Origin: a virus
Virus record (IMG/VR): IMGVR_UViG_3300035179_000049
Location: 1 to 29,748 of that record
Strand: one strand, 5' to 3'
DNA length: 29,748 nucleotides
This document shows, piece after piece, positions 1 to 29,748 of this stretch. The position numbers and the translations under genes were made by a program. The notes under the pieces are model-generated. The model was not told the DNA's origin, searched no databases, and worked only from the letters and a program-made list of their open reading frames with translations. Within the stretch, counting starts at the first letter, position 1. Every line of letters begins with the position of its first letter.

Positions 1-236
1 GAATATCTTTCCATTAGGGTATGTTCCCGCCAGCGCAATTCCGTTGCCCAAATAGGCAAGAGAATAGATATGGGTTTCCGCCGCCTGTTGTCCAAGGTCT
101 GTCCAAGTAGCCCCATAATCCGTAGAGCGGAATATCTTTCCATGCCCGCCTGTTCCCGCCAGCGCAATTCCGTTGCCCAAATAGGCAAGAGAAAGGATAT
201 AGGTTTCCGCCGCCTGTTGTCCAAGATTCGTCCAAG
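1..236. repeat. Tandem 129-bp coding repeat (43-residue blade)
   Basis: Bases 1-107 and 130-236 are near-identical copies with a period of 129 bp, which keeps the reading frame of the fibre gene. The array starts at the window edge, so more copies may lie outside. DNA-level identity is much higher than protein structure would require, suggesting recent duplication or ongoing recombination. Confidence 0.85.
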
Positions 237-22620: not shown

Positions 22621-24249
22621 TCACTCTCCTTCTTCGATTTTATCTCTTGCCTCGGCCGCGGCCATCCGCGCTGCCTCCGCACTTGCTCGTCCCTTCTTCG
22701 CCTCGTCCAGAATCTTGTCTACCCTGGCTGCCAGTTCCTCGACCTGGGCGTCCCGGCCCTGGGTCATCCCTCCCACGCCGGCGTCGGACAAAGGCACATA
22801 GGCCGTGGAGATGTAGTACCTTTCCGCGTCTTCATCTTCGGGCGCCTCGACGTCCACCTCGTCCGCAATCTGCTTCCTGTTCATGACTCCGACTCCGAAG
22901 AGTTGAACGCACCTGTTCGCGATTGCGTTGATATCCCGCAGGTCGACGTCGCCCCACCAAAATTCGAACTTATCATTTTCGAGTCCCTTCTCGATAACCA
23001 AGGACGTGATGATCCTGGCCGTCACGAGCTTGAGCGGATTGACGCTGCTTTCGATGTAGACCCTCGTCGCTTCGGACGCTATATTCCCGCCCAGGCTGCC
23101 TTGCCTTGCAATGCCGATCCGATAGGGAGGCATCTTGAACGGGACCAGGACCTCGTCGATCAGCGATGCGTGATAGAGTTTGAAGTGGCCCTCTTTGATC
23201 TCGGTAACCAGGGGCTCCCACGTCACCTTGCCGCCTTCGGGAGGATTGACGACGATCGTCTTGTGGGCGTTCGCGCTGCCCTTGATATCGACGTCGATGA
23301 AGTCCGAAATGAGTTTGACGTTCTCCTCGTACCAGTCTCCCTCGACGATGACCATGGCCGCCGGCACCCCGTAGTTCTCGAAGAAGGCGAGGTTGTAATC
23401 CCTCGCCCCGATCATGGCCCTGACGCTTCCGACCGCCGGCAGGATGGGCGGCTGGCCATAGAACGAACTCTGGGGATAATAGTTGACGAAGAAGATCAAC
23501 TCGTTCGCTCTCTTATCTTCGGGCACGTTCTTCTCATCGCCCGTGTCCTGGTGGACGTCACCCTCGTATCCGAACTTCTTGAACCACTTCTTGTCTATGC
23601 CCCGAATCTGGCAATATTTGTTGCGGTCTTTATGCACTCGTATCATGTGGGCGTGAACGTGGAATAGAGCGTCGATCTTGCCGTCCTGCCCGCGGGATAC
23701 CTCGATGCCCATTTGGCCAACGGACTCGAAGTCTATGATCGCCCTCTTCCAGATCTCTTCGAACGTTTCGACGTCGTCATTCGGATTCCTGAAAAAATGA
23801 GACAGCCGCTTGAGCTCTGCGTCGTTTGGCCCAGGTGCTTTCGATGCCGCGGGAGCAGCCTCTACTTCGCCCTCCCCTGGAGTTGCCTCTGCTTCCTCCT
23901 CGGGCGCCGCTTCTACGTCCTCCTCCTCTTTCTCGGTGATGTCGTACCCCTGCCCCGTGACGTCCGTCGCGATCTGGCGGACACAAGCGTCGAAGTAGGA
24001 GCAGTTGTCCATGAGGAGCAGAATCGAAAGCATGTCGAACGGCGGGGGAGCCAGGTTGTTTTCGGTAAGATATAACTGCTCGATCGCGAGCTGCTTGCTC
24101 TTCTTGTTCGCGGCCTTCGTCTCTTTCTTGATCTCCGCCTTTCTTAACTGCTCCCAGGGGAATAGACCCCGGCTTGTGTAGACGTACCGGAATACTTTGC
24201 CCTTCCGCTTAACGGGAGGAGATGAAGACTCTTTGTTTTCGCTGCCCAT
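22621..24249 (-). CDS. Portal protein (PBSX/SPP1-like)
   Basis: A 542-residue protein. ATG 24249 is preferred because GGAGG lies five bases upstream; an ATG ten codons earlier (24279) has a poorer site. Signature segments are DMLSILLLMDNCSYFDACVR, SSFYGQPPILPAVGSVRAM, IGARDYNLAFFENYGVPAAM and PPYRIGIARQGSLGG, as in PBSX-family portals. The C-terminus is a long coiled coil (DAQVEELAARVDKILDEAKK). At ~107-141 there is an acidic Ala/Pro/Glu insertion (EEEDVEAAPEEEAEATPG) not typical of the family. The protein forms the 12-subunit DNA channel and terminase dock. It overlaps the terminase by 41 bases. Confidence 0.9.
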   Translation of the reverse strand: MGSENKESSSPPVKRKGKVFRYVYTSRGLFPWEQLRKAEIKKETKAANKKSKQLAIEQLYLTENNLAPPPFDMLSILLLMDNCSYFDACVRQIATDVTGQGYDITEKEEEDVEAAPEEEAEATPGEGEVEAAPAASKAPGPNDAELKRLSHFFRNPNDDVETFEEIWKRAIIDFESVGQMGIEVSRGQDGKIDALFHVHAHMIRVHKDRNKYCQIRGIDKKWFKKFGYEGDVHQDTGDEKNVPEDKRANELIFFVNYYPQSSFYGQPPILPAVGSVRAMIGARDYNLAFFENYGVPAAMVIVEGDWYEENVKLISDFIDVDIKGSANAHKTIVVNPPEGGKVTWEPLVTEIKEGHFKLYHASLIDEVLVPFKMPPYRIGIARQGSLGGNIASEATRVYIESSVNPLKLVTARIITSLVIEKGLENDKFEFWWGDVDLRDINAIANRCVQLFGVGVMNRKQIADEVDVEAPEDEDAERYYISTAYVPLSDAGVGGMTQGRDAQVEELAARVDKILDEAKKGRASAEAARMAAAEARDKIEEGE

Positions 24250-25846
24250 GATTCCCTCCAGCCTTAACTTCGGACTCATTCACTACTGACCCTTCCGCCG
24301 GCCTTGGTTGGTCCGCCGGCACTTCTTTCTCCGGAACCTTCATGCCGCCGTGGATAACTTTTCCTCCGCGTCTCACCGGACCGAGTTTCCACATTACCCA
24401 GTAACGAGTTTCATCGAGGCTATGGTCTTTTTCCTTGACCGGCTTCCCTTTCCGCTCGAGATAATTATTCACTTCCATGAGCCAATATTGACAACGTCGA
24501 TTAACCCGGAATTTGGGCGGCCCCAGGACTGGGCGGAGGGCATTGCGGACGGCCCCGATGCCGATCTCAATATCATTATTCGCAGCATATAATTTTATTC
24601 CGGCCGCCGCCCATTCCTTTATCAGATCTGGACGGCTTGGATCGGCTACCCCCTCAGAAACATTCGGCCACCATGGCCGACTCCGGGCCTCCTCGATCAA
24701 TCTTGTGTTCGTTGTGTTCGCGATATATATCTCATCGACCCTGATCCATCCGAGCGGCGTGAATTTCTGCCAGACGCCAAGCGAGAAAGGATTCGTCCCG
24801 CCCCAGTCGATCGAGATCACGGCCGGTAGATCGGGGCTGAAATCAGGCAGATCGAGCGGCGAATGGATGGCTTCATCGAACTGTTCGCCATAAACGAGAT
24901 CGGATCGCCCTACTTTATTGCAAAACCAATCGGTCTGAAGACTCATGAGCGACAGGTCCCTGAGTTTGCTTACGAAGTCGTGGATGGCATAATGGCCCTC
25001 GGCATTCTTCATCTGCAGGCCCGGACAGAAAGGTGTCAATTTGCATGTAGAACATGAGTAGTCCCGGCAACTTTCCGATGTCTCGAAAATACACCAATGA
25101 TATATGGGGATCCCATGCTCCTTCGCGTTGGCCAGGGCCAAGTCCATCGCCCCGCCCACGCGGTGATTCGTGGATAGCCTTCCCAGGGAGCTTATGTGGC
25201 CATGTTTGCTCTGAGGCTGGGAAAGCGCCGCTATATAAACATCCTCCGGCATTTCGTCAACCTCATCCATGATCAACTGGACCGGATGAGGACCGCGGGC
25301 CGAGCGAGTCGAGGCGGTGAGGACCGACACGCGGCTCTTATTTTTCCATTCCGTCAGCCTCCGCATGGGCTCGCCTGTGAGCCAGTCGTCCCGGAGCCCC
25401 GTCGAATCCCAGAAATCGCCCATTGCCTTATAGACCTTTTCGCTCTGCTCGAACGAACCGCCGAGGATCGTCGTGTCATAGTCCGGGAGGAATCCACTTT
25501 TCACCCAGGTCACGAGCGCCGCTAGATAGCTCTTCCCGCCGGACCGGTTGGCCCAGACCACATAATCATGGACCCGGCCGAGAAGGATATCCGTCACGAA
25601 ATCCAGCGGGGCGCGGTGGTTGGGATTGCCGCAGTTAACGCGGCTGCTGATGCGCGGGCCGCGCAGCCATTCTATAAGCGCCAAGACATCCGCCGCGGAT
25701 TTTAGGCCATTACGCCTCAGGCCCTCGATCATCACCTTCTGAATCTTCCGGCTGTATGGGAAGCTCCAGAAGGCGTCGATGTCCGTCCCCGTTTCCATTG
25801 CGGAGGATGGCGACGAATTCCTTGACGCCTGTGATTCCATATTCAT
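24209..25846 (-). CDS. terL: Terminase large subunit
   Basis: A 545-residue protein with both motor and nuclease parts. Walker A is ANRSGGKS (99-106), Walker B LIMDEVDEM (191-199), and the coupling region STNHRVGGAMDLAL. The nuclease begins ISIDWGGTNPFSLGVWQ (D347). Between them lies a cysteine cluster (ESCRDYSCSTCKLTPFCPG, C260, C265, C268, C274), probably a structural zinc or Fe-S site. ATG 25846 has AAGGAG seven bases upstream but overlaps the upstream gene by 137 bases. M39 at 25732 has AGAAGGTG directly adjacent and is the other candidate start. It packages DNA through the portal. Confidence 0.93.
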   Translation of the reverse strand: MNMESQASRNSSPSSAMETGTDIDAFWSFPYSRKIQKVMIEGLRRNGLKSAADVLALIEWLRGPRISSRVNCGNPNHRAPLDFVTDILLGRVHDYVVWANRSGGKSYLAALVTWVKSGFLPDYDTTILGGSFEQSEKVYKAMGDFWDSTGLRDDWLTGEPMRRLTEWKNKSRVSVLTASTRSARGPHPVQLIMDEVDEMPEDVYIAALSQPQSKHGHISSLGRLSTNHRVGGAMDLALANAKEHGIPIYHWCIFETSESCRDYSCSTCKLTPFCPGLQMKNAEGHYAIHDFVSKLRDLSLMSLQTDWFCNKVGRSDLVYGEQFDEAIHSPLDLPDFSPDLPAVISIDWGGTNPFSLGVWQKFTPLGWIRVDEIYIANTTNTRLIEEARSRPWWPNVSEGVADPSRPDLIKEWAAAGIKLYAANNDIEIGIGAVRNALRPVLGPPKFRVNRRCQYWLMEVNNYLERKGKPVKEKDHSLDETRYWVMWKLGPVRRGGKVIHGGMKVPEKEVPADQPRPAEGSVVNESEVKAGGNHGQRKQRVFISSR

Positions 25847-26201
25847 CCAAGAACTCCTTCAATTCCTGCATCGGGCCGATCTCCTCGATTATCGGTTGGC
25901 TGATTTTTCCCTCCGTCCTTTCGGCTATAAAGTTGACGGCCCAGGCCTCCCCGGCGATTGCGGCCCGCCATACGGATTTGATCAGCCACAACACCCTTTT
26001 CAGGTGCAGTGTCTTCTCCCCTATTTTGCCGGTTTCCATCTCCTCGCCTTCGGTAATCAGAAGGTCGCGGAGCGTCCTATTAAAAGTGAGAACTTTGTGA
26101 CTGATCTGTCCGTTACGATTGATGCGAGGATCGCCCTTTTTGAAAGAGCCTGCTGTCGGAGGACGTTGAGCTGTATTACTGTCTATTTTCTCATTCATCA
26201 C
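25710..26201 (-). CDS. DUF5681-like protein, probable small terminase partner
   Basis: A 163-residue protein. The N-terminus has GSFKKGDPRINRNG, the hallmark of DUF5681 proteins that lie next to large terminases. A helical region follows (TLRDLLITEGEEMETGKIGE; LHLKRVLWLIKSVWRAAIAG) and an acidic end. It starts at GTG 26201 or the adjacent ATG; the ribosome site is weak. It is divergently arranged with the DUF523 gene, with 138 bases between. DNA recognition for packaging is inferred from its position. Confidence 0.75.
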   Translation of the reverse strand: MMNEKIDSNTAQRPPTAGSFKKGDPRINRNGQISHKVLTFNRTLRDLLITEGEEMETGKIGEKTLHLKRVLWLIKSVWRAAIAGEAWAVNFIAERTEGKISQPIIEEIGPMQELKEFLDEYGITGVKEFVAILRNGNGDGHRRLLELPIQPEDSEGDDRGPEA

Positions 26202-26282
26202 ATTTCTTTATCATTTTGGGGACTTCATTTTTATCGACATAATCCACGTATCGCTTTATTGGATTTCATTTTATATGTTCAC

Positions 26283-26311
26283 TTGACAGGAAATTCGCGG
26301 CGATTTATATT
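26283..26311 (+). promoter_or_regulatory. Near-consensus sigma70 promoter for the DUF523 gene
   Basis: TTGACA (26283-26288), exactly 17 bases, then TATATT (26306-26311). The predicted start near 26318 leaves a ~22-base leader before AAAGGAG and ATG 26340. It faces against the packaging operon. Confidence 0.7.
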
Positions 26312-26339
26312 TTAAGTGCAAATAAAGAAAGGAGTTAAG

Positions 26340-26801
26340 ATGATTATCTATTGCAGTTCGTGTCTTCTCGGGAAGCAATGCCTCTGGCATGGTAATATTC
26401 TTAAATTCTCGGCAGGGGGAATCGCGATGATTGCTGCGGCTGGCCATATCTTCATCGATTCCTGCCCCGAGATACTTGGCGGTTTGTCTTGTCCTCGCCC
26501 CCCTTCTTATCGCAGGCCTAATCGCCCGGGCCTGCTCATCGCGGCCGGCAAGGACGTCACGCCGGCGTTCGAACTCGGGGCAAGGCGGGCGCTGGCATTT
26601 CTGCGCGAAGCGCGGCCGCGTCCAGAGCTCGCCCTCCTGTTGGCCAAAAGTCCCTCCTGCGATCCCGGCTTCGGGATATTTGGCCGCGAAGCGGCAAAAT
26701 TTATCCACGCGATCGCCTGCAATCGCAAGGATGGCCTCTGGCTCGAGCAGGCCTTGAAATTCTTGCATATCCTTCCACCTCAACGATATTTATTCCAATA
26801 G
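26340..26801 (+). CDS. DUF523-family protein (TudS-like Fe-S desulfurase candidate)
   Basis: A 153-residue protein on the plus strand. It shows the family order: SSCLLGKQCLWHG (C8), DSCPEILGGLSCPRPP (C42), GKDVTPAFELGARRAL, and LLAKSPSCDPGFGIF (C107). Three conserved cysteines at these places match those that hold the [4Fe-4S] cluster in thiouracil desulfurase TudS. ATG 26340 has AAAGGAG five bases upstream. The family glycine after SPSC is aspartate here. It has its own promoter and overlaps the end of the convergent PAPS-reductase-like gene by 22 bases. The minus-strand frame across it looks like a shadow. Desulfuration of a thio-nucleobase is inferred by family only. Confidence 0.85.
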   Translation: MIIYCSSCLLGKQCLWHGNILKFSAGGIAMIAAAGHIFIDSCPEILGGLSCPRPPSYRRPNRPGLLIAAGKDVTPAFELGARRALAFLREARPRPELALLLAKSPSCDPGFGIFGREAAKFIHAIACNRKDGLWLEQALKFLHILPPQRYLFQ

Positions 26802-27976
26802 TTATAAAAATAATCAATATTATTATCACCTGAATGGCGAGGAAATTTCAAGGTCATTGCCAAGATGCGCATTTCTTCCCAAAGCATTGGATAACATGTT
26901 TGGAGCGCTTCCCACTGAGGACTGGATTTACTTTTTCCTTGAAATGGACACATCCAACAAGCTGTTCTCTTAAATCCCCGAACATAACCAGGCCAAAGCA
27001 ATCCCTCTGCTTTTTTTAATAATTCCTCATACTCATCCTTTGATGTTTTGAAATAGGGGGAATAACTTAATCCCTTCGAGGATAAATGTACCGATGATCT
27101 TCGGGTACGACTTATAATTTGATCGGGTCGCCCTCCCCTTATTTTCAAAACCTTGACCGGGTCCGTATTATCTATCGTCTTCTCTATAACATCGTTTATG
27201 AACATATGTTGGCAATCTCGATATATGGGGTCTGGCCATTTCCCTTTCTGAATATAATGCGCTATGATATTTTCTGTCGCATGTAGTATACGGAGATTGA
27301 ATCCTTGTGCCTTCGCCAGACGCAAAATATACGCTATTAAATCTGGAAATTCGGCCCCCGTTTCAACAAATAAAGCCTCAAATGATTTCCCAATAATTTC
27401 ACAAGCTTTTTTAGTCCAATATAAGGCGAGAAGAGAATCTTTGCCGCCACTGAATTCAACAAAAATATATTCAAAATTCGCCAACCAGATAAGCTTATCT
27501 TCGGGTATTTGCGGAAGATCCGGAAGTTTAATTAAATTATCCAATTGATTTCCACCTGGTCCATATTGTTCAATTATATTTTTTAAATTTACCGCCTTTC
27601 CTAGATCGATCTTATAATCTTCAAGATTAATTTCTTCAAAATGCGGATATACCAGTTCGGCCAATTTATCCTCGAGATATTCCCCCGCCCGATCATTGTC
27701 CGAGAGCGCGTATTTTATCTTTTCCGCTTTCGTCTCAGCCCTGACGACTGATATTTCAACATCTTTATGGCCAAGTTCCAGAAGTGCCCTTATCCTCATA
27801 TTCCCGCCGAGCGTTATGAATCCGCCGTTCTCCTCAACGCAGATGAGCGGCTTATAAATTCCGAGGTCCTGGATCTGCCGCTTCAGACGCCCAAAGTCGG
27901 CGGTCTTGATATTTCTGGGATTTTCCGCCCATGGCTTGACGAACTCAATTGAGACTTTCCGGATGTCCATTCCCAT
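26780..27976 (-). CDS. ParB-like / PAPS-reductase-like fusion (IbrB-IbrA type)
   Basis: A 398-residue protein. The N-terminal domain (~8-130) is ParB-like: WAENPRN (16-22), GGFITLGGNMRIRALLELG (51-69), ALSDNDRAGEY. The C-terminal domain (~165-390) is a PAPS-reductase/N-type ATP pyrophosphatase: EFSGGKDSLLALYW with PP-loop SGGKDS (176-181), LFVETGAEFPD, YRDCQH (C255), and RTACWMCPFQGKS with C340 and C343. IbrB and IbrA are separate proteins in Escherichia; here they are one chain. The family includes DndC-like sulfur-transfer relatives, but typical sulfonucleotide reduction is not established. AGAGG lies before ATG 27976. The gene is more AT-rich than the packaging genes. Confidence 0.85.
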   Translation of the reverse strand: MGMDIRKVSIEFVKPWAENPRNIKTADFGRLKRQIQDLGIYKPLICVEENGGFITLGGNMRIRALLELGHKDVEISVVRAETKAEKIKYALSDNDRAGEYLEDKLAELVYPHFEEINLEDYKIDLGKAVNLKNIIEQYGPGGNQLDNLIKLPDLPQIPEDKLIWLANFEYIFVEFSGGKDSLLALYWTKKACEIIGKSFEALFVETGAEFPDLIAYILRLAKAQGFNLRILHATENIIAHYIQKGKWPDPIYRDCQHMFINDVIEKTIDNTDPVKVLKIRGGRPDQIISRTRRSSVHLSSKGLSYSPYFKTSKDEYEELLKKAEGLLWPGYVRGFKRTACWMCPFQGKSKSSPQWEALQTCYPMLWEEMRILAMTLKFPRHSGDNNIDYFYNYWNKYR

Positions 27977-27998
27977 CTTGGGCCTCTTCCCGGCTTCA

Positions 27999-28028
27999 AT
28001 AATGGGACAGAATGAGGATGGCTGTCAA
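27999..28028 (-). promoter_or_regulatory. Sigma70-like promoter for the ParB/PAPS-reductase-like gene
   Basis: On minus, TTGACA (28028-28023), 18 bases, then CATTAT (28004-27999). Transcription would start near 27992, about 16 bases before the ATG, leaving just enough room for its ribosome site. Confidence 0.5.
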
Positions 28029-28107
28029 GAAAAAAGTTATTTTATTGAATCAGATTATATTTATTGGCCACCAATTTTGGCCTAGCCCATTAGCATTGAA
28101 ACCGCCG

Positions 28108-28302
28108 CTATTCCTCGCTCATCCTCTTCTCATAGCAGTCCGGCCCGCAGAATATTCTGTGATTCGGATGGATGTATCTGATACCTGGATGGATAATCCC
28201 GCAAATCGGGCACTGCACGGCTATCCCCGATTCCAACGCCTCTCTGACGGACATTCTGTTGATTTTTTTCATTAAATCGTTATACCGTTTGTCATGTGTC
28301 AT
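28108..28302 (-). CDS. Small zinc-finger protein
   Basis: About 64 residues from ATG 28302 (AAGG just upstream; the frame stays open farther up but runs into the preceding gene). A basic helical start (DKRYNDLMKKINRMSVREAL) is followed by CPICGIIHPGIRYIHPNHR and FCGPDCYEKR, a four-cysteine zinc finger with extra histidines. It may bind nucleic acid or another protein. No specific family is recognised. Confidence 0.55.
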   Translation of the reverse strand: MTHDKRYNDLMKKINRMSVREALESGIAVQCPICGIIHPGIRYIHPNHRIFCGPDCYEKRMSEE

Positions 28303-28318
28303 TTTCCTTGAATTTTCG

Positions 28319-28516
28319 CTAGCTTTTATTCGCACATCCGGGGCATAGATGCGACCAATCTCCGACATCATCCTTGGATATCTTCCAGCCGATCATTTTT
28401 GCGTCGGCTATAAAATCCTTGAAATAAGTTCGGTCAAAAAATTCGGATATTCCGCAGTCGTCACATTCCATATCAAAGCCGGAAATTCCGCCTTCCCTGG
28501 CCCAATCAGTTATCAT
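28319..28516 (-). CDS. Small zinc-binding protein
   Basis: A 65-residue protein with ECDDCGISEFFDRTYFKDF near residues 17-35 and a terminal HLCPGCANKS, so two CxxC pairs that can form one zinc site. GAGGAAA directly precedes ATG 28516. Similar tiny proteins are common in phage genomes, often described as recombination- or host-control-associated hypothetical proteins. The role here is unknown. Confidence 0.6.
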   Translation of the reverse strand: MITDWAREGGISGFDMECDDCGISEFFDRTYFKDFIADAKMIGWKISKDDVGDWSHLCPGCANKS

Positions 28517-28575
28517 TTTCCTCTATGGTCTAAGCTTATGCATGTGTTCATGCTCCGTAGCTATCGGTTCGCTAT

Positions 28576-28878
28576 TTATTTCTCGGGTATCTTCCTGTAC
28601 TTTTTGAGCTCGAGTTCCAACTCGGCGACTTTGCTCCACGCCCAAATCGCCTTGAGGATGAAAGCCTTGGTCACAATCGTATACTCGCCGGCCGGATCCG
28701 CGTCGGCAGCCCAGGCCAGGACGCCCGCTGTGATCGACCCTATGACCTTCTCCTCCCCGACCGGCACGTAAATATTGGGGGGAGGGATCTTACCGCAAGC
28801 CGTGAAGTAGCTTAGCGATAATACGATTGAGAGCGTCAAAATCATTGCTCTCCATGGCTTTGAGCGCATCTTGTTCAT
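28576..28878 (-). CDS. Small lipoprotein, start nested in upstream gene
   Basis: A 100-residue protein from ATG 28878, with AAAGGA six bases upstream; earlier in-frame codons lack a site. It has a signal peptide with basic start (NKMRSKPWRAM), hydrophobic core (ILTLSIVLSLSYF) and lipobox ending TAC-G. The mature part includes a helical segment (FILKAIWAWSKVAELELELK). The start lies 88 bases inside the preceding gene in another frame, similar to Rz/Rz1 spanin pairs. It could be an outer-membrane spanin, but the mature domain is longer and less proline-rich than usual. Confidence 0.65.
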   Translation of the reverse strand: MNKMRSKPWRAMILTLSIVLSLSYFTACGKIPPPNIYVPVGEEKVIGSITAGVLAWAADADPAGEYTIVTKAFILKAIWAWSKVAELELELKKYRKIPEK

Positions 28879-29002
28879 CTTTGTTCCTTTCCTTTTGAAT
28901 TTCGTCGATTTTCTCATTGATCTTCTCCAACTCTGTCTTTAACAGATGAGGCAATAATTGGAGAACCAGCTCTAGAATTCCTCCGATCACTTCTCCCGGC
29001 AT
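28790..29002 (-). CDS. Small amphipathic / coiled-coil protein
   Basis: A 70-residue protein. An N-terminal amphipathic helix (EVIGGILELVLQLLPHLL) leads into a charged coiled coil (TELEKINEKIDEIQKERNKD) and a helical end. AAGGA precedes ATG 29002, two bases after the upstream gene. The hydrophobic part contains Glu, Gln, Pro and His, so it is not a convincing membrane anchor. It may pair with the lipoprotein encoded in its 3' end. No family is recognised. Confidence 0.5.
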   Translation of the reverse strand: MPGEVIGGILELVLQLLPHLLKTELEKINEKIDEIQKERNKDEQDALKAMESNDFDALNRIIAKLLHGLR

Positions 29003-29003
29003 G

Positions 29004-29180
29004 TTAGTCCTTGAATAATCCGGATTTCTCCGCTTCTGTCAAAACCGATAAGACGTGTTCGTATACGCGATTATAAGCGGCAGTCTCCAACTTCGGAAGT
29101 TCCGGCGGTCTAATGCTCGACCAAAAAATAAGCATGATTTTTTCGGTCAACATACCCGCTTTTGTTTTTGGTGTTTCCAT
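29004..29180 (-). CDS. Small protein, unknown
   Basis: A 58-residue protein from ATG 29180; AGGAGG lies six bases upstream and settles the start. It is helical (AGMLTEKIMLIFWSSIRPPE; YNRVYEHVLSVLTEAEKSGL). It sits between the tube-like paralog and the coiled-coil gene in the same operon. Function cannot be assigned. Confidence 0.5.
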   Translation of the reverse strand: METPKTKAGMLTEKIMLIFWSSIRPPELPKLETAAYNRVYEHVLSVLTEAEKSGLFKD

Positions 29181-29190
29181 GTTATTCCTC

Positions 29191-29595
29191 CTAAAATCTA
29201 AATTTAACAAAATCTCCGCGCCTCCTCGGGGAATCGTCGGGAAAACTGATGAAGGTGAGTTTGTAGAGACCGTTCTCTGATTCTAATCCGACCGGGTACG
29301 CTCGGTAAACTGTTAGCCACGTTTTTTTTGCCGATACAATTCCTCCGGCCGCCCGTTTCAAAATGAGTTTCTTGGATTCGGCATACACCGATGCCGGCTT
29401 CATCCTGGCCTTTATGAGCTTACGGAGCACGACTCTCAAGCCCGAGTTGCCCTCAAAAGTGCATTGGAATTTGAGAACCGATGTGTAAAGCCCCGCGTTC
29501 TTTTGAACTGCCATACAGTCTTTTGCCAAGCCGAGCTCCTTCTTGTCCCACACTACCTTGCATGGACCCAGGTCTGATACGTAATTCGGGCTCAC
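29191..29595 (-). CDS. Diverged tail-tube-like paralog
   Basis: A 134-residue protein that resembles the tube protein at 6222-6743 at both ends. The start YVSDLGPCKVVWDKKELGLA compares with IGDIGPCQVTWDYGGTEVNL. The end has YAESKKLILKR, KTWLTVYRAYPVG and LYKLTFISFPDDS, against YVNAKAIVIKL, SEWLHIYHAHPYR and TFGVKFLVFPSLDS. The middle is ~40 residues shorter. It starts at GTG 29595 in a GTGA overlap with a 30-codon frame. It could be a minor tube, tail-end or terminator ring component, or a related cargo; the sequence does not decide. Confidence 0.65.
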   Translation of the reverse strand: MSPNYVSDLGPCKVVWDKKELGLAKDCMAVQKNAGLYTSVLKFQCTFEGNSGLRVVLRKLIKARMKPASVYAESKKLILKRAAGGIVSAKKTWLTVYRAYPVGLESENGLYKLTFISFPDDSPRRRGDFVKFRF

Positions 29596-29684
29596 CTCAC
29601 CGCCCCTTCATCCCCGCTCCCCGGTTTCCCGATGGCCACGTCCATGACCCATTCTTGCACCTTTGCTGCAAGTTTGTGTGACAT
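29592..29684 (-). CDS. Very small open reading frame (30 residues)
   Basis: It starts at ATG 29684 with TAGGA seven bases upstream, begins SHKLAAKVQEWVMDVAIGKP and ends in a GTGA overlap with the tube-like gene. The overlap and ribosome site suggest it is translated, perhaps mainly to couple expression. No function can be given. Confidence 0.35.
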   Translation of the reverse strand: MSHKLAAKVQEWVMDVAIGKPGSGDEGAVR

Positions 29685-29693
29685 GATGAATTC

Positions 29694-29748
29694 CTAGTTT
29701 TTATTTAATAAAACCCGCCTTACAAATTCTGCCATGACGGTGCCCACA
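29694..29748 (-). CDS. C-terminal end of an unknown gene (cut by the window)
   Basis: Seventeen codons ending AEFVRRVLLNKN and TAG 29694-29696. The stop region also forms the ribosome site of the next small frame, consistent with an operon continuing from outside the window. Confidence 0.3.
   Translation of the reverse strand, partial: VGTVMAEFVRRVLLNKN

Follow-up and report, generated by a model that had tools for sequence, protein, structure and literature searches.

Host phosphorothioation systems, RudS desulfidases (including a phage one) and phage fusions of ParB domains with DNA methylases are already known, and in Escherichia coli a ParB-like protein, IbrB, and a PAPS (3′-phosphoadenosine 5′-phosphosulfate)-reductase-like protein, IbrA, are encoded by separate genes and act on gene expression. 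In a viral DNA of 29,748 nucleotides (IMG/VR record IMGVR_UViG_3300035179_000049, positions 1 to 29,748; this whole stretch is called the window below), we found one gene for a ParB-like domain joined to a PAPS-reductase-like PP-loop ATP pyrophosphatase, facing a gene for a TudS/DUF523-like desulfidase. The pair is real and conserved, and we propose that its two proteins act as a sulfur ‘writer’ and as a sulfur ‘eraser’ or cleaner. A first-pass annotation of the sequence had remarked that its author knew of no described phage system with this exact pair, and no description was found among the matches listed in the open-access literature, with subscription papers and preprints outside the search (papers are cited here by PMC number, for those parts of their text that were available).

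A ParB/PP-loop fusion facing a TudS gene

The fusion gene (26780–27976, minus strand) encodes 398 amino acids. The first-pass description of a single protein with a ParB-like and a PAPS-reductase-like domain, carrying the motifs SGGKDS and CWMC, was confirmed by the open reading frame (ORF), by Pfam and PHROG matches and by the fold of an AlphaFold2 model (predicted local distance difference test score, pLDDT, 88.9) compared using Foldseek and VIA. Conservation was read from an alignment of 31 fusions, the window plus 30 non-redundant full-length sequences (redundancy threshold 95% over the last 100 residues), with truncated or split fusions (e.g. L010, L020, L026, L106, L118, L121 and L134) and that of Methanoculleus virus Blf4 outside it. 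The ParB/sulfiredoxin-fold part covers approximately residues 1–130 (27587–27976, minus strand). Its Pfam match to ParB_N (E 2.6e-4, 21.4 bits) was under the cut-off of 26.3, and the assignment is backed by PHROG ParB families, by a profile match to ParB 4umk (E 6e-13) and by the fold of the model, which VIA matched to ParB 7bnr_A with Z 12.7 (95 residues, root mean square deviation 2.6). Beside the ParB fold itself, the nucleotide-binding box-II arginine of a ParB-CTPase fold was found as Arg61 of a GxxR motif (G58..R61) and in 28/31 fusions.

The PP-loop or PAPS_reduct domain (PF01507, E 1.4e-10, over cut-off) spans residues 170–343 (26948–27469, minus strand). Its pyrophosphate loop, SGGKDS (residues 176–181; 27434–27451, minus strand), was kept as SGGxDS in 31/31 fusions, and three cysteine columns were invariant (31/31), with every other cysteine column reaching at most 17/31. 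These are Cys255 (27212–27214, minus strand) and the two cysteine residues of C340-W-M-C343 (26948–26959, minus strand; in ACWMCP, residues 339–344), which are predicted Fe–S ligands. Against defence profiles, the PP-loop domains matched SspD in 31/31, BrxP in 28/31 and two DndC models in 7/31 and 5/31; these nearest defence relatives share a PAPS-reductase-like PP-loop domain with the fusion. The cluster of DndC has been modelled with ligands C146, C280 and C283 plus C273 (PMC12193691), and C146/C280/C283 show the same C...CxxC layout as C255/C340/C343, a likeness at the level of the pattern. In contrast with SspD, DndC and BrxP, the fusion has an N-terminal ParB domain and a TudS partner and occurs mostly on viral contigs, and no DndD/DndE, SspB/SspC or cysteine desulfurase was found among the 25 most frequent neighbour families of the pair.

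The best fold matches of the fusion model were APS (adenosine 5′-phosphosulfate)/PAPS reductases (7lhs_B, VIA Z 14.4, root mean square deviation 3.4, 183 residues), followed by FAD synthase (14.2), TilS/MesJ (13.7), GMP synthetase (12.7), NcsA (12.0), TtuA (11.6) and LarE (11.1). The thiolases were not singled out by these scores, and thus the fold identifies a PP-loop enzyme and no finer class. TtuA and NcsA, tRNA thiolases with a three-cysteine [4Fe–4S] site and a free iron (PMC10067955), have the PP-loop fold in common with the fusion, whereas the fusion has ParB, and its sequence match to them was weak and confined to the PP-loop (NcsA E 6e-4, TtuA E 0.0017). The PDB chain PptA (21fy) was also among the profile matches of the PP-loop protein, and a profile search of the PDB with the C-terminal portion of this domain gave no match. 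Assimilatory PAPS/APS reductases are marked by a C-terminal catalytic ECGxH cysteine and by an altered, non-ATPase P-loop. The CysH motif ECGxH was absent from the aligned fusions (0/31), and on this, together with the intact SGGxDS (31/31) and the genomic context, we rejected an assimilatory sulfate reductase. Phage fusions of ParB with DNA methylases (phrog_498; also PMC12704722) contain the same kind of ParB domain, but the window fusion has a PP-loop enzyme in the place of the methylase. Among the matches listed (the best 40 of 505), the ParB part has numerous phage relatives with a DNA methylase annotation, suggesting, as does PMC12704722, that such domains commonly carry a base-modifying enzyme as cargo; the main text of that survey of ParB folds does not mention PAPS.

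The partner gene (26340–26801, plus strand; ribosome-binding sequence AGGAG at 26330–26334, plus strand) encodes 153 amino acids and overlaps the fusion gene convergently by 22 bases at their 3′ ends (26780–26801). Its product matched PF04463 (2-thiour_desulf) with E 3.6e-15 and 56.7 bits against a cut-off of 34.7, and the AlphaFold2 model (pLDDT 92.8) was matched by Foldseek to the solved TudS 6z96_A (E 1.4e-8, template-modelling score 0.72). Structure modelling, which the first-pass annotation had named as a check, thus returned the TudS fold for one protein and PP-loop enzymes and ParB for the other. In TudS_A the cluster cysteine residues are C10, C43 and C104 and the catalytic residues E45, S101 and S103 (PMC10611767); these align to C8, C42 and C107 and to E44, S104 and S106 of the window protein respectively. 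In an alignment of 36 TudS proteins of the cassette type (cassette TudS: the window protein and 35 from a non-redundant set of 38, with L119, L122, L125 and Blf4 outside; L118 and L122 are close relatives), PF04463 was matched at E ≤ 0.001 by all 36. Cys8 (26361–26363, plus strand) and Cys42 with catalytic Glu44 (26463–26471, plus strand) were present in 36/36, and in the catalytic and cluster motif S104-P105-S106-C107 (26649–26660, plus strand) S104 and P105 were present in 36/36, S106 in 29/36 and C107 in 35/36 (35/37 counting L119). The DUF523 gene, its 22-base overlap and its three cluster cysteines therefore stand as first annotated, and of the motif loss that would have spoken against the pair the alignments gave the opposite picture in both proteins.

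The cassette TudS resembles the [4Fe–4S] thiouracil desulfidase TudS (PDB 6z92–6zw9) in fold, in the three cluster cysteines and in the active-site Glu and Ser, but forms a separate group. It has Cys14 in 35/36, His for Asp19 in 31/36 and Asp after the last cluster cysteine in 26/36, and lacks both the [RK]Y[DN]G motif and the YDGTFTG-like stretch found in six other TudS proteins (L125, L177–L181). One branch separates it from eight other TudS proteins (support 81/97, and 80% of 200 bootstrap trees; a moderate, unstarred support). Docking places Arg17 of TudS_A at the substrate phosphate (PMC10611767), and arginine occurs at this position in 30/36 cassette proteins. The window, L009, L092 and L093 form a four-member clade on a long branch, whose proteins are extended at the C-terminus and have Leu in place of Arg17; the substrate of this clade has possibly shifted. 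RudS (TudS-DUF1722), which lowers 4-thiouridine (s4U) in tRNA (PMC11417400), likewise brings a TudS domain into a phage (RudS_vir, Escherichia phage 1H12), whereas the window protein has no DUF1722 and matched PF04463 only; no PAPS match was found within the stretch fetched around the RudS gene of phage 1H12 (L186).

Linkage of the two genes across viruses

We first scanned viral sequences using the window fusion and its Blf4 relative as queries and obtained 80 loci, 18 with a PAPS domain and 62 with the ParB part only. A TudS profile match lay beside the PAPS domain in 16/18 loci, compared with 0/62 of the ParB-only loci (Fisher p 6e-15, the loci not all being independent). The 0/62 held on a repeat with shorter ORFs, with 9/62 loci shorter than 6 kb, and on this count a link of TudS to phage ParB genes at large was rejected. 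On two ParB-only contigs (L062, 8061–8264; L063, 6855–7058) a weak PAPS-profile match was seen elsewhere on the contig. A scan from the TudS side found a PAPS domain in 37/44 loci (36/43 without the window's phage), and one from the fusion side with a wider fusion alignment found TudS in 34/39 (33/38 without it); these raw counts include near-copies (L015/L016/L026 and others). As the first fusion query was built from two TudS-bearing phages and the TudS patterns from linked genes, the linkage rates are valid for this clade. The first-pass annotation had named independent occurrence in related phages as what would refute its pairing of the two genes; the scans gave the opposite result, with adjacency in most loci and a linkage far beyond chance. 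Such linkage makes a functional coupling of the fusion and TudS very probable.

Of 33 fusions in all (the window, Blf4, the split L010 and the 30 non-redundant sequences), a complete TudS was present and the pair measured in 29, with L022, L025, L141 and L172, which have no complete TudS (one cut by a contig end), outside. The two genes were at most 300 bp apart in 28/29 pairs and overlapped in 15/29. Twenty pairs were convergent, eight co-directional with the fusion first and one divergent, and the co-directional label changed six times on the TudS tree, at least three of the changes being forced by well-supported branches. Chance neighbourhood and a merely shared operon were both ruled out by the co-occurrence counts together with these orientation flips. 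The distances of the PAPS domains and the TudS proteins were correlated (Mantel r 0.44, p 2e-4, n=26), compared with 0.23 for the PAPS and ParB parts of the same polypeptide, a soft comparison, given the greater divergence and the gaps of the ParB part.

The pair is also present in a cultured virus. Methanoculleus virus Blf4, a lytic archaeal virus of Methanoculleus bourgensis, carries both genes and then a terminase. Its gene L003:1242–2486, annotated as ‘DNA modification methylase’, encodes PAPS_reduct plus ParB_N under cut-off and no methylase domain by Pfam, and L003:2532–2942, annotated as ‘hypothetical protein’, is 2-thiour_desulf (TudS) by Pfam. Likewise, phrog_27395, listed in PHROG as of unknown function, matches TudS/DUF523 proteins. 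Both annotations can thus be corrected: the Blf4 ‘methylase’ is without a methylase domain and the ‘unknown’ phrog_27395 matches TudS proteins. No DNA modification test is reported in the available text of the Blf4 paper (PMC8540584).

Several TudS loci lacked a PAPS domain. In three (L092, L110 and L127) TudS lay near a contig end, in L101 the fusion was at the opposite end of the same contig, L119 and L120 had a weak ParB-type match only, and L125 held a canonical TudS. From the fusion side, L163 was cut at the edge and L169 gave a weak, different match. A scan with non-cassette TudS returned two viral loci, L191 (the contig of L125) and L192, and a PAPS domain in neither (0/2), and five of the TudS-bearing phage-collection records (L177–L181, from two sets of 11 and 27), taken with as much as 5 kb of flanking sequence, gave no PAPS match (0/5); on these loci a general link of any TudS with PAPS was rejected. 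In one of these, the Acinetobacter phage MD-2021a record (L180), the annotated metabolic genes look like host chromosome. In Acutalibacteraceae phage NatCom_991 (L182:5004–7060), the gene after a ParB-matching ‘DNA methyltransferase’ encodes a PAPS-like protein of its own, containing CWCCP, and there was no TudS match; this is possibly an intermediate arrangement.

In bacterial and archaeal assemblies, TudS adjoined the fusion in 5/5 loci from four assemblies, one TudS being cut by the contig end (25 bits). The loci belong to Planctomycetota, to Akkermansia (three loci in two assemblies) and to Methanosarcinales. A search at E 1e-30 located the PP-loop domain in 2/260 genomes of the Akkermansia assembly's family and in 6/237 genomes of the methanogen assembly's class, the starting genome counted in each. 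The matches in the Akkermansia family carried ParB and TudS, and in the methanogen class this held for the starting genome only, as five PP-loop proteins of that class (L202–L206, E 1e-30 to 1e-33) had neither a ParB part nor TudS within 3–3.6 kb. Within this limited sampling, the cassette looks viral rather than chromosomal.

Genomic setting and signals for expression

A second record of the window's phage, a contig of 54.5 kb, is 99.96% identical across 29,739 bases. The family-matched genes tested, for tape measure, head, portal and large terminase proteins, read leftward, and the plus-strand TudS gene has the candidate gene for a small terminase on one side and the fusion gene, on the minus strand, on the other. 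The large terminase subunit (24209–25846, minus strand) was assigned from PHROG terminase families (best E 2.2e-10) and the portal protein (22621–24279, minus strand) from PF04860 (E 4.9e-15), and the small terminase (25710–26201, minus strand), which has no family match, is a candidate by position. Packaging genes also recurred around the pair in other phages. Among 114 ORFs (picked from 148) of 32 loci, terminases of the families GpA (7), Terminase_3 (5), Terminase_6N (5) and TerL_ATPase (2), as well as portals, were among the most frequent neighbour families (the 25 most frequent of 166 and of 44). We infer that selection keeps the two genes adjacent even where the packaging modules differ.

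The fusion gene (26780–27976) has a G+C content of 41%, compared with 56–57% for the TudS, terminase and portal genes, which hints at a recent entry of the gene. The window TudS gave no tblastn match among phages and plasmids, and window 26200–29748 gave no distant blastn match among phages. Elsewhere in this phage, a 129-base tandem repeat (1.8 copies) lies at window positions 1–236, with more copies in the longer record (G001 24469–24968), and the other half of the genome (L006:6177–6944) contains a 256-residue frame with CPHKCKYCY that looks radical-SAM-like by eye.

The TudS gene is preceded by a sigma-70-like promoter, TTGACA-17-TATATT (26283–26311, plus strand), which has 11/12 consensus positions and ends 28 bases upstream of the start codon. 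Promoter-like sites were more frequent in the region than in shuffles (11 vs 5.6±2.2), and a weak one, TTGACA-18-CATTAT (10/12), lies ahead of the fusion gene (27999–28028, minus strand). Across the relatives, 9/25 convergent TudS genes, the window's included, had a sigma-70-like site upstream at shuffle p<0.05 (binomial p 2e-6, which takes at face value shuffle values obtained by mononucleotide shuffling). Eight of the 39 rows of this test fell outside the 25 convergent and six co-directional ones (seven of unknown orientation and one divergent); of these outside rows, L092 and L119 also reached p<0.05 and L176, co-directional by the pair measurement, did not. Judged by these sites, TudS genes that face the fusion may in many cases be transcribed separately.

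Possible functions of the pair

The two genes are linked: they are neighbours in many phages, frequently close to packaging genes, and their active-site residues are intact; the chemistry, the substrate and the direction given below are our proposal. PP-loop enzymes adenylate their substrate, three-cysteine clusters leave an iron for sulfide, and TudS takes the sulfur of a C=S group (PMC10067955, PMC10611767). The reading that we prefer, tentatively, is a phage cassette in which the ParB/PP-loop writer thiolates nucleic acid and a dedicated TudS desulfidase erases the product or cleans up; that the fusion protein is the one that inserts sulfur we regard as probable. The first-pass annotation had likewise inferred opposing activities on a thio-modified nucleotide or nucleic acid, as a modification/removal or a defence/counter-defence module. 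This is partly supported: the linkage bears out the coupling of the two genes, and the opposition of the activities, DNA rather than RNA or a nucleotide as substrate, and a part in defence or counter-defence are putative. The ParB-fold domain would be a nucleotide-gated clamp or specificity domain that places the fusion on nucleic acid, as suggested by the ParB domains linked to DndB and to methylases (PMC10853773, PMC12704722). The PP-loop domain would activate a carbonyl oxygen by adenylation, that of a pyrimidine base being the most likely, and then put sulfur in its place; the three-cysteine [4Fe–4S] site of the domain would leave one iron free. The TudS-like protein would reverse this step by moving the C=S sulfur onto its own open [4Fe–4S] cluster; a thio-base is taken as the product because this is what TudS can undo. 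The mark would be added late to DNA for packaging, and separate production of the eraser would serve to remove it or to clear away free thio-nucleotides. This timing is suggested by the writer, which reads with the packaging genes in the window, and by the convergent TudS genes, which are often preceded by a separate promoter-like site. The fuller form of the proposal, a reversible sulfur mark in which bases of the phage genome are thiolated at packaging and TudS, expressed from a promoter of its own, strips off the sulfur when the next infection starts or clears stray thio-nucleotides, is possible but doubtful. We know of no thio-base in viral DNA and of no pair of enzymes that writes and erases a sulfur mark.

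Several observations weigh against this proposed writer and eraser. For both proteins we infer the substrate, the cluster and the activity. The thiolase NcsA is outscored in fold by APS reductase, FAD synthase, TilS/MesJ and GMP synthetase, and the best PDB profile matches were GMP synthase and QueC, via the PP-loop. The nearest defence profiles are those of makers of backbone phosphorothioates, not of the C=S group that TudS is known to attack. On the TudS side, stand-alone TudS uses 4-thio-UMP, with s4U of E. coli tRNA unchanged (PMC10611767, PMC11417400), so that a polymer would be a new kind of substrate. In the clade of the window, the phosphate-binding Arg17 of TudS_A is replaced by Leu15, the position of S103 is Ala or Met in 7/36 cassette proteins, and the third cluster cysteine is Gly in L017 and also lost in L119. 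Some fusions were found without TudS, namely L022, L025 (none found on its contig of 61.8 kb) and L141. Furthermore, the co-directional label is barely more clustered on the tree than in shuffles (48/500 as low), no co-directional TudS gene had a separate promoter signal (0/6 at shuffle p<0.05), and the distance correlation may be plain co-inheritance of linked genes.

The same facts are kept, and only the direction differs, if TudS is instead the supplier in a sulfur relay, taking sulfur from host thio-nucleotides (e.g. the 4-thio-UMP of tRNA decay). The PP-loop enzyme would receive this sulfur from TudS as cluster-bound sulfide and use it to modify phage nucleic acid. Both proteins keep three cysteine residues predicted to fit a cluster with one free iron, TudS reaches a [4Fe–5S] state (PMC10611767) and the DndC cluster takes its sulfur from a desulfurase (PMC12193691); no cysteine desulfurase was among the 25 Pfam families most frequent in the neighbours, and the extra Cys14 of the cassette TudS is nearly invariant. 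However, a supplier should be co-expressed, yet 20/29 pairs are convergent, Cys14 also occurs in some other TudS proteins (L177, L178 and L181) and host IscS could provide the sulfur. We consider such a relay rather unlikely.

Lower still we place DNA phosphorothioation, in which the fusion would sulfurate the backbone like SspD or DndC, with ParB replacing DndD/DndE or SspB/SspC and TudS repairing or regulating by an unknown reaction; this we hold to be unlikely. The matches to SspD, BrxP and DndC given above agree with it, as does the fact that DndB is itself a protein of the ParB superfamily (PMC10853773). Against it, TudS is known only for thiocarbonyl, and no partner of such systems (DndD/DndE, SspB/SspC, PglZ/BrxL or a cysteine desulfurase) was found among the neighbour families covered (the 25 most frequent of 166 and of 44). 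A backbone product thus agrees with the closest defence profile but does not suit the TudS partner.

A regulatory role is improbable. Here the ParB plus PAPS-like protein would steer host or phage gene expression, as IbrBA does in E. coli; it would leave no lasting sulfur mark, and TudS would be a metabolic add-on. ParB-fold proteins bind nucleoside triphosphates and can be switches (PMC12704722), and L010 has ParB and PAPS as separate ORFs, but the strict conservation of the PP-loop and of the three cysteine residues and the pairing with TudS argue against it. Finally, a role as auxiliary metabolic genes, with a PAPS reductase for sulfate assimilation and thiouracil salvage for the host, is very improbable, because, although PAPS genes of biogas-plant phages have been interpreted in this way (PMC8879888), single-domain TudS salvages thiouracil (PMC11417400) and APS/PAPS reductases are the best fold matches, the two marks of such reductases given above speak against it (ECGxH 0/31, SGGxDS 31/31), and the PAPS domain is fused to ParB and lies near packaging genes in many loci.

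Taken together, our results cast into doubt the sulfate-assimilation reading of the phage PAPS genes of this clade, and the culture of Blf4 makes the pair accessible to direct experiment. If the proposed writer and eraser are correct, a subset of the phage ‘PAPS reductase’ genes assigned to sulfate metabolism would be nucleic-acid modifiers, and the pair would be the first viral sulfur epigenetic cycle and a candidate for counter-defence.

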